From: Pisciglobus halotolerans
GTDB taxonomy: Bacteria; Bacillota; Bacilli; Lactobacillales; Carnobacteriaceae
DNA length: 39,221 nucleotides
Assembly (NCBI RefSeq): GCF_900113675.1
Contig: NZ_FOQE01000021.1
Location: forward strand, 1 to 39,221
Reading direction: 5' to 3'
Part shown: piece after piece, positions 37,290-39,221 of the stretch
Numbering within the stretch: the stretch's first letter is position 1
Layout: the number at the start of each line of letters is the position of its first letter
Made by a program: the position numbers and the translations under genes
Notes under the pieces: generated by a model
What the model saw: only the letters and a program-made list of their open reading frames with translations
Database searches by the model: none
What the model was told of the DNA's origin: nothing

Positions 37290-37928
37290 ATGAGCAGCTC
37301 CCATACCCCGCCGCGGTTAGATAAACGGATCTTAAAAAGCAAGCACGCGATCGAGCAGGCTTTTATCGATCTATTAAAAGAAGAGGATTATAGCAAAATC
37401 ACCATCACTAAGATCACTGAGCATGCTGGCGTTAACCGCGGAACATTTTATAAGCACTATACTTACAAGGAAGATATTTTAAAAGAGGTTCGTCAATCTG
37501 TCTTAGACCAATTTACCAATATCTTAGAAACCATCTATATTCACTTGTCTATTTTAGAGCTTCGGCATCAGCCTTTAGACACCGCCCTATTTGCCTTTGT
37601 TTATGAAAATCGCGATTTCTTTCATCTGGCCCTTCATTCGATCGGCTTTTTGGACTTTCAAAACCAATTTTGCAACAGCATCAAACAGTTGTTGCTGGAA
37701 CAATATTTCTCGCGAGTCACACTTCCGGAAAAAACCAAAAATGTTCTTTGCGGCTATATTTCATATGGCTTCTTAGGTATTTTAGTTGAATGGGACAAAA
37801 CGGACTATCAAACTTCAGTTGAAGATGTTACTGAAACGACGCGCCAAGTCTTGATTTGTGACTTTGTAGAATTAAAAAAACAAAGCATGAAAAACTTGGA
37901 CACTTCAGAAGAAGATAAAAACAACTAA
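37290..37928 (+). CDS. TetR/AcrR-family regulator (DhaS-like C-terminal domain)
   Basis: 212 aa. N-terminal HTH: LKSKHAIEQAFIDLLKEEDYSKITITKITEHAGVNRGTFYKHYTYKEDILKEV. The rest, with FVYENRDFFHLALHSIGFLDFQNQF and CGYISYGFLGILVEWDK, resembles the C-terminal domain of DhaS-type regulators of Firmicutes, where members are often annotated as dihydroxyacetone-kinase regulators; here no such operon is nearby. AAGGAGG is 7 nt from ATG. Its stop is 45 bp before the tRNA gene. Confidence 0.9.
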   Translation: MSSSHTPPRLDKRILKSKHAIEQAFIDLLKEEDYSKITITKITEHAGVNRGTFYKHYTYKEDILKEVRQSVLDQFTNILETIYIHLSILELRHQPLDTALFAFVYENRDFFHLALHSIGFLDFQNQFCNSIKQLLLEQYFSRVTLPEKTKNVLCGYISYGFLGILVEWDKTDYQTSVEDVTETTRQVLICDFVELKKQSMKNLDTSEEDKNN

Positions 37929-38719
37929 TTGCCTCTGGACATTCTGATGGAAATCTGCGAAAATAAACATTGTGGCCCTATAGCTCAGGTGGATAGAGCA
38001 AACGTTTCCTGTACGCAACGTTTTACAACAAACTAAATTGAAAAGTTTAGCAAAATGTAAGAGCTTCTGTAGCTTAACTGTTACTACGATACTGTGCACA
38101 ATGAAAAAAGCACACTCCAGTTCAACCGCTGGAGAAAAACCTTAACCTCCGATTGGCAGCTGTAAAGATAGTTGCAGTGTGTCAAAAGTTCGGTAAAGTC
38201 GGCATCGTGTCTCCAAGACCATTTGCCGGAGGGCTATAAATTAAATAAGGTGAGCATGTGTGTGGACACTGACGAACTTTCGAATGTGAGGATGTTTACT
38301 GCGCATTGTCGCATGCGCGGCTGCTTGTCTGGGAAAGCGAGCGCTGCGGTTAGGGATTTGCCCTGACCTGTTTCTTGTTTGGTGGTTGAGAACAAGAAAT
38401 GCAGAACATCTGTAGAAAGCACCTAAGTTTAACTGTAAAGCTAGTAGTAACGGAACGTTGGAAGCAATAAAGAATCACCCTTTCCTATCTGAGGATTCTA
38501 AATAGCAGGACAATGGCTATTGTATTATTGTGGCAGCGGCTGTGTAGTACCAATGAAACAGGGATAACAACCTGTGGAGGAAAGATGGCCAGTCAAGGAA
38601 AGCAATGAGTTGAAGCATATCGCCATTATATCAAGTAGCATAGCTGTTCAGCCAGACTGAATAGAATTTATTTATCATAAGAGATCATCTCTCTTCTCTC
38701 TTTGTTGTTTCTTGATGGA

Positions 38720-38753
38720 ACGCCTTGTGCGATGAAAGTCGCCTGCAAGGTGT
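38720..38753 (+). ncRNA. Group II intron domain V
   Basis: Exactly 34 nt: lower 9-bp helix ACGCCTTGT with GCAAGGTGT, upper 5-bp helix GCGAT with GTCGC, GAAA tetraloop, two-nt bulge CT on the 3' side. The catalytic triad is CGC (38721-38723) with its middle G in a G:U pair, as expected; CGC in place of AGC is known from group IIC introns. Confidence 0.93.
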
Positions 38754-38816
38754 GGACTGGGGGAAAACCAGTAATCTGAGCAAGTCATGTTGCAGATGAA
38801 CGTTACCTATCAGTAT
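38754..38816 (+). ncRNA. Group II intron domain VI with branch-point adenosine
   Basis: Basal pairing ACTGGG (38756-38761) with CC...CAGT (38806-38814) leaves TAT unpaired; A38809 in that bulge is eight nt from the 3' splice site, the canonical branch position. A distal stem TCTG (38775-38778) with CAGA (38793-38796) caps the domain. Confidence 0.75.
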
Positions 38817-38864
38817 AAACGTTAGGTCGGGAGTTCAAATCTCTCTAGGGTCGTTTTATCGATA

Positions 38865-38910
38865 AAAAGCGGTGAAATCGAGGCATACAAACCTTGATTT
38901 CATCGCTTTT
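38865..38910. terminator. Terminator after the split tRNA gene
   Basis: AAAAGCGGTGAAATCGAGG (38865-38883) pairs, with few mismatches, with CCTTGATTTCATCGCTTTT (38892-38910). It ends in a T-run and is 11 bp after the tRNA discriminator base. Confidence 0.85.
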
Positions 38911-38939
38911 CTCGGTTCCTCCTCTTTTAACGTTGATAA

Positions 38940-39121
38940 AGAAATTTCCTACGGTCGATGGGCTACTGATGGAAAGCCATGAGAACACATTGAGCCGAAA
39001 ATCGTGTCTCAATGTTTGCAAGCTTCAAACTTAGTGTAACGGCTAAAGCCTAACACTAAGTGATTCACATTGCATCTTTTTTCATGGCTATCAGTAGCCC
39101 TATGTGCCTCCTGAAATTTCT
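38940..39121. other. Multi-branched fold-back element of unknown type
   Basis: Nested inverted repeats around one centre: AGAAATTTC (38940-38948)/GAAATTTCT (39113-39121); GGGCTACTGAT (38960-38970)/ATCAGTAGCCC (39090-39100); AGCCATGA (38975-38982)/TCATGGCT (39082-39089). Inside are two separate hairpins, CATTGAG (38988-38994)/CTCAATG (39008-39014) and ACTTAGTGT (39029-39037)/ACACTAAGT (39053-39061), the latter topped by GGCTAAAGCC. No ORF and no match to a riboswitch or T-box motif that I know. It could be a structured RNA or a MITE-like element. From 39122 to the window end I see nothing else. Confidence 0.7.
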
Positions 39122-39221
39122 AGAAATAGGATTCTAAAGAGTTTAGCATTAAAAAAATTGATTTTTTACAGACCAACGTTAAATATTGTAGAACCCTTTT
39201 CTCATTAGTGGAAACCGTTAA

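Follow-up and report, generated by a model that had tools for sequence, protein, structure and literature searches.

We identified a tRNA-Arg(CCU) gene interrupted by a group II intron in a member of the Carnobacteriaceae, and its features make it very probable that a working, ORF-less intron is spliced out of the only tRNA-Arg(CCU) gene found in this bacterium. The stretch of DNA analysed (39,221 nt, here referred to as the window) makes up contig C61 of a 2.44-Mb draft genome that is 99.99% complete and lies in 88 contigs. The split gene is within the last 1.3 kb of the window, and the contig ends 368 nt past the tRNA. The same interrupted tRNA-Arg(CCU) was found in Desemzia incerta DSM 20581 and Desemzia sp. 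RIT 804, both Carnobacteriaceae, with introns 79% identical to that of the window. The features of the locus are collected in Table 1.

Table 1. Features of the split tRNA-Arg(CCU) gene, its group II intron and the adjoining sequence (window coordinates)
Feature	Position	Strand	Description	Evidence
TetR-family regulator gene	37290..37928	+	directly upstream of the tRNA; context
tRNA-Arg(CCU) 5' exon	37974..38010	+	tRNA nt 1-36; 37 nt with an extra D-loop base	ARAGORN (joined exons; introns allowed), contiguous orthologues in relatives
IBS2 AAACG	38000..38004	+	tRNA nt 26-30; tentative
IBS1 TTTCCT	38005..38010	+	tRNA nt 31-36; pairs with EBS1
ORF-less group II intron	38011..38816	+	806 nt, GTACG...CTATCAGTAT	RF00029 and RF02004 matches; 79% identity to two Desemzia
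Domain I	38078..38453	+	approximate limits	three-orthologue consensus fold; RF02004 at 38073-38240
EBS2 candidate TGTTT	38293..38297	+	this intron has five such candidates	matching place in both Desemzia
EBS1 GGGAAA	38331..38336	+	domain-I hairpin loop; six pairs with IBS1	loop common to the consensus fold of three species
Domain II	38457..38537	+		consensus fold
Domain III	38538..38590	+		consensus fold
Domain IV	38592..38716	+	short, without reading frame; least conserved part	55.6-66.2% pairwise
Domain V region	38719..38754	+	GAAA loop	36/36 columns invariant in three species
Domain VI	38756..38814	+		54/59 columns invariant in three species
Bulged adenosine, presumed branch point	38809	+	-8 from the intron 3' end
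tRNA-Arg(CCU) 3' exon	38817..38853	+	nt 37-73; CCA not encoded	ARAGORN
Hairpin adjoining the tRNA 3' side	38865..38910	+	terminator-like by our reading	fold of 38856-38920, -31.0 kcal/mol

The original prediction, made from the sequence of the window, described two tRNA halves with every stem complementary and 806 nt apart, and both ARAGORN and inspection of the stems agreed with it. With introns disallowed, ARAGORN called no tRNA in the window; with introns allowed, it called a tRNA-Arg(cct) with an 806-nt intron, and the proposed check on the joined exons, run with the same program, again gave tRNA-Arg(cct). No intron-containing tRNA was called in 20 dinucleotide shuffles of the whole window. 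The acceptor, D, anticodon and T stems were all paired, with one wobble each in the acceptor and T stems. Both exon 1 and the intron have T as their last base, which leaves the 36/37 splice junction ambiguous by one base; it is favoured because the intron then starts with G and ends in AT.

The hairpin on the 3' side of the tRNA was absent from the list of the consensus terminator scan, and promoter-like sites near the split tRNA were at chance level (3 found, 2.2 expected). A dispersed repeat of about 280 bp follows right after the tRNA (about 38908-39200), with the contig ending just beyond it. A copy in contig C28 (L036) is 92% identical to this repeat over 283 nt, and shorter pieces of the repeat were detected in contigs C39, C49, C31, C36 and C64.

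The Rfam run matched the insert to the domain V-VI model RF00029 at 38718-38816 (50.2 bits, cut-off 40) and to the D1-D4 model RF02004 at 38073-38240 (47.1 bits, cut-off 34.5), which bore out its identification as a group II intron. No group I family was among the Rfam matches of the window at gathering score, and the group I reading was thus rejected. The usual 5' end of group II introns is GUGYG, from which the GUACG of the window and both Desemzia introns differs by one base. At the 3' end, CTATCAGTAT, the bulged A at -8 and the terminal AT (AU) are those of a group II intron, so that the branch A in domain VI and the AY end held up as predicted. No ORF of at least 80 aa is listed inside the intron, its longest open frame on its own strand being 64 aa, and domain IV carries no reverse transcriptase (RT)/maturase as mobile introns do.

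The IBS1 sequence is identical in the window, in both Desemzia and in the split tRNA of a Bacillota MAG described below, and it can pair with EBS1. Both Desemzia introns have the EBS1 counterpart AGGAAA at the matching place, and the MAG intron has it in a similar hairpin loop. The purine run complementary to IBS1 is a common one, so EBS1 has chance rivals: with wobbles counted, six sites in the window intron (three of them overlapping) and 11 in the MAG intron could pair with the last six nucleotides of exon 1. Only GGGAAA, among the six, is inside domain I, and the case for it thus rests on position, in a domain-I loop of three species and the MAG. The EBS1-like matches to exon 1 that had been claimed therefore stand for this site, but with six possible pairing places they are weaker than was stated. 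For the EBS2 candidate TGTTT, no counterpart was found in the MAG intron.

Conservation among the three species is graded, with 36 of 36 columns invariant in domain V, 54 of 59 in domain VI and 62 of 136 in domain IV, as would be expected of a working ribozyme. The exons differ from those of Desemzia at 2 of 37 positions in exon 1 and at 1 or 4 of 37 in exon 2. We read six domains in the RNAalifold consensus fold of the three orthologues, in which 36 of 254 pairs showed compensatory change, a count without a shuffled control. RNAalifold, which is unable to draw pseudoknots, paired exon-1 nt 32-36 and the first intron bases with the 3' exon, not with EBS1. When domains V and VI plus the exon were compared in four sequences, the MAG included, 99.3% of the cells were paired and 6 pairs were doubly changed, with none of 500 shuffles as high on either; on one of the five measures in this test, 42 of the 500 shuffles came as high, and part of the structure had been drawn from the alignment on which it was tested.

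The relatives also offered empty sites. Among 18 genomes of the family, three carry the intron, 11 have contiguous tRNA halves, three more are intact by ARAGORN (BLAST showed just the 5' half in these) and one, G005, gave no match. The survey of relatives proposed at the outset thus returned, beside the two Desemzia, uninterrupted tRNA-Arg(CCU) alleles in 14 of the 18 genomes. All 12 intron-less family loci given to ARAGORN held an intact tRNA-Arg(CCU); in L055, a recJ locus, it found no tRNA. The tRNAs of the intron-less relatives match the joined exons, a mismatch of which would have spoken against the prediction, at 71 of 74 positions in five tRNAs of genus g3 and at 64-67 of 74 in three of genus g4. 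Of the 12 intron-less family loci, 6 have a relative of the window tetR gene upstream of the tRNA; the Desemzia loci do not, and the thioredoxin-like gene of the window is common to both of them. With these shared neighbours, the interrupted and intron-less loci were taken as orthologous. The split gene is best read as inherited together with its intron, by descent across genera.

A pattern scan of 84,980 genomes, with a pattern (one D-arm shape plus the anticodon CCT) that covers tRNA-Arg(CCU) alone, returned one further, distant case in the MAG Bacillota bacterium TL1-4.bin53 (L086). Here a diverged group II intron of 906 nt (RF00029, 61.2 bits) cuts tRNA-Arg(CCU) at the same junction; this intron starts with GUGCG, has no match to the D1-D4 families at gathering score in Rfam, and has longest open frames of 108 aa on its own strand and 122 aa on the other. 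The MAG genome has RVT_1 and GIIM matches. Its joined exons are 100% identical to uninterrupted tRNAs in 26 of the 42 genomes of its order, the MAG counted in the 42, and tRNAs at least 89% identical were found in 38 of the 42, with none at this level in G469, G485 and G495. The T stem of the MAG tRNA has one non-standard pair, which is not decay since the joined exons equal intact tRNAs letter for letter. The tRNA-Arg adjoins two tRNA-Ser genes in the MAG and in one intron-less relative. In the 3.6-Mb genome G469, no tRNA-Arg(CCU) match is closer than 79%, and the gene there is missing, divergent or interrupted.

The original prediction saw convergence on one site, and a second lineage at the same tRNA-Arg(CCU) junction agrees with it. 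On the other hand, the Carnobacteriaceae and MAG introns may be one tRNA-Arg-specific intron that moved between distant Bacillota, which we consider a possible reading, less likely than not. They share the tRNA, the junction, IBS1/EBS1 and very similar 3' ends, and a tree of 12 intron cores groups the MAG intron with the tRNA introns, in a set of five (97/97) that includes one non-tRNA intron. Against a single origin, this position was flagged as a long-branch join, and the MAG core is 48-51% identical to the three Carnobacteriaceae tRNA introns vs 48-52% to introns in recJ. The tree comprised seven loci with a chosen domain-I motif and five known introns; 38 loci were screened and 11 that could not be parsed were left out.

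The only other group II match in the window genome is an ORF-less 778-nt intron in recJ (L045 2582-3359, contig C39), with an RF02004 match of 146.3 bits. Its 3' exon encodes the DHH, DHHA1 and RecJ_OB domains, joining the exons by eye restored GDYDADGVTSTAV, and an EBS1 sought by eye gave no clear candidate. Introns of 828-896 nt, with a longest open frame of 101 aa on either strand, are present at the same recJ codon in five sister-genus genomes (L049-L053); in G015, the one of the five that was checked, the recJ domains were confirmed and no RVT_1 match was detected. In another genome of the family, G003 (L055, L078), the intron whose 3' end coincides with this recJ site has an RT-HNH-like frame; its listed stretch scores 175 bits against TIGR04416, where the cut-off is 300. 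This RT-bearing intron suggests how the ORF-less ones arose, namely from mobile introns that shed their protein and persisted in housekeeping genes.

Two close group II introns per genome were also observed in family f21 of the Bacillota (G066, G113, G152 and G186; L097, L114, L093, L115, L099, L116, L100 and L117). In L099 and L114 the 3' exon has a Pfam RecA match, and the others are recA-like by eye only.

We searched the window genome with the RVT_1 (PF00078) and GIIM (PF08388) profiles and found no match in this 99.99% complete draft; both profiles do match in Desemzia, as well as in 3 of the 14 control genomes. As no RT/maturase was detected, the RNA itself most likely carries out the splicing, aided by general RNA chaperones of the host, and splicing is probably, by a modest margin of confidence, independent of a dedicated maturase. 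It is doubtful, but possible, that splicing in vivo needs a trans-acting intron-encoded protein, which would be absent from the draft assembly or supplied by a mobile element; a maturase gene could be missing, since the genome is a draft in 88 contigs. Bacterial ORF-less introns nearly always share their genome with a related intron-encoded protein, according to the available part of a 2015 source (PMC4424553), recJ of a genome in the same family holds the intron with an RT frame, and each Desemzia genome has one group II RT gene. In Desemzia sp. RIT 804 this is an intact RT/maturase of 429 aa (TIGR04416, 432.3 bits), whereas its counterpart in D. incerta is split over two frames (252.3 and 139.9 bits), which speaks against such a helper, as do the empty profile searches and the retention of the tRNA intron through divergence to 79%. 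Neither Desemzia gene is inside the tRNA intron, and help in trans from them is possible in that genus. Apart from these, D. incerta encodes a Drt2-like antiviral reverse transcriptase (contig C8, L083 1168-2634) at 342.7 bits, below the family cut-off of 390.

Splicing in vivo with lariat formation would then proceed as follows. The pre-tRNA would be transcribed whole and its intron would fold into six domains, with EBS1 of domain I (and perhaps EBS2) holding tRNA nt 31-36 (and perhaps 26-30). The domain-VI adenosine A38809 would attack the 5' splice site, U36 would be joined to A37 and the intron released as a lariat. Before splicing, the intron would hold the 5' strand of the anticodon stem; after ligation, the freed strand could pair with nt 39-43, and the anticodon stem would form. 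We infer that this pairing should release the product and discourage reverse splicing, making the reaction effectively one-way.

The tRNA search of the window genome, in which 150 of 172 first-look candidates were scored, gave 57 matches, and ARAGORN named 57 tRNAs in those stretches. None of these has the anticodon CCT, so that no second, intact tRNA-Arg(CCU), which would have weakened the prediction, was among them; the DNA search of the two Desemzia genomes returned only the split gene. A tRNA-Arg(UCU) is present in the window genome, and such a tRNA may read AGG by wobble, while AGG is rare, with 24 of 8,922 codons in 25 window ORFs, which were not checked as genes. With this tRNA present, the split gene may not be the only means of decoding AGG, and the statement that the AGG-decoding tRNA depends on the intron was too strong. 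The same two facts would fit a dead tRNA gene with AGG read by tRNA-Arg(UCU) alone, but we find this very unlikely: all stems are intact, the exons have few differences from Desemzia, domain V is unchanged, the ribozyme shows compensatory changes and the gene is kept in three species. Sequence conservation disfavours a dead insertion. An assembly artefact or a misread group I intron can be dismissed as next to impossible: the contig does end shortly after the tRNA, but the same structure in two separately assembled Desemzia genomes and the MAG refutes an artefact, and group I families are missing from the Rfam matches.

Bacterial group I introns occur in tRNA-Arg(CCU) and tRNA-Ile(CAU). They resemble the window intron in being of a self-splicing type and inserted in tRNAs (in the anticodon loop in the reviewed cases), and differ from it in ribozyme class. 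One review, in its available part, describes bacterial tRNA introns as group I (PMC4033280), and another treats group I and group II introns in Bacteria in general (PMC4390854). The original prediction had likewise held that bacterial tRNA introns are group I, which is contradicted by TeI4h of Thermosynechococcus elongatus: published in 2010, this group II intron interrupts the tRNA-Ile(CAU) gene, which is present there in a single copy (PMC2882425).

According to the available text of that report, TeI4h is like the window intron a bacterial group II intron in a single-copy tRNA gene, and its authors infer splicing to a functional tRNA (PMC2882425). Unlike the window intron, it encodes its own RT/maturase, starts with U and sits among many related introns, and its efficient movement in E. 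coli was achieved with altered RT and intron residues (PMC2882425). Its host is a cyanobacterium and its tRNA is tRNA-Ile(CAU) (PMC2882425), whereas the window intron is in tRNA-Arg(CCU) of a member of the Bacillota. In the open-licence literature, we found no description of a bacterial tRNA-Arg that carries a group II intron, and TeI4h was the sole bacterial group II tRNA case found. New relative to it are the lack of an intron protein, a genome in which no maturase was found, descent across genera, the Bacillota host and the different tRNA; also new is the use of the same tRNA-Arg(CCU) site in two distant lineages.

C.te.I1 of Clostridium tetani, in the available parts of two sources, is ORF-less like the window intron, in a genome without an intron-encoded protein, and self-splices in vitro; unlike it, C.te.I1 lies in a surface-layer protein gene and undergoes alternative splicing (PMC3919590, PMC4424553). 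As of 2015, no other ORF-less bacterial intron was known whose genome lacks a gene for a related protein (PMC4424553). The draft window genome resembles that of C. tetani in that no intron-encoded protein was detected, and the two Desemzia genomes do not. The recA group II intron of Geobacillus kaustophilus (cited in PMC4424553, in the part available) is also in a bacterial housekeeping gene, but in a protein gene. With respect to C.te.I1, the tRNA gene and the orthologues in another genus are new.

Organellar group II introns occur in trnK (PMC4424553) and also in trnI, trnA and trnV. Those in organellar tRNA genes rely on MatK or nuclear-encoded proteins, whereas none was detected for the window intron. 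Like the window intron, these organellar introns are immobile, often ORF-less and vertically kept in essential tRNA genes. Perhaps the bacterial lineage has reached an organelle-like state, a picture that we hold to be slightly less likely than not: protein-less, immobile group II introns would be fixed in tRNA-Arg and recJ and spliced by RNA only, with general host factors, in cells that have no maturase, and distant Bacillota would share a recurrent landing site in the tRNA-Arg(CCU) anticodon loop, mirroring the group I introns of other bacteria.

Spliceosomal introns are regarded as descendants of group II introns, which in bacteria are described as mostly mobile and outside housekeeping genes (PMC4424553). 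The split tRNA-Arg(CCU) could thus be a tractable model of how a mobile ribozyme turns into a fixed, host-dependent intron, in a tRNA that apparently needs splicing. It also appears to be a natural case in which a group II intron and the tRNA fold compete for the anticodon arm, and the cell apparently must splice RNA before tRNA-Arg(CCU) works.

We further surveyed genomes with a covariance model of domains V and VI plus the 3' exon, scoring few candidates per genome under strict filters, so that the carrier count is a lower bound. In 398 Bacillota genomes (E up to 1e-8), it matched 32 places in 22 genomes, and only the window's own was in a tRNA; 30 of the 32 places were put to ARAGORN with introns allowed, two places in G236 being left out. 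In 395 genomes of the window's order (E up to 1e-15), four genomes matched, namely the three carriers plus G018, at whose locus no tRNA is called. The two matches in the 42 genomes of the MAG's order were the MAG and G482 (coordinates of G384), the latter locus being outside any tRNA. No viral contig matched the split tRNA-Arg(CCU) pattern. Among plasmids, 259 records matched, 245 of them from Enterococcus and none over 80% of the query; the listed Enterococcus matches were 86.7% identical over 60 nt at domain V. In one of these plasmids, the conjugative Inc18 plasmid pWZ1668 of Enterococcus faecalis (L132), a group II intron with an ltrA-type RT gene, directly after which the matching domain V stretch lies, is upstream of a DNA topoisomerase gene and is likely a mobile relative of the window intron.
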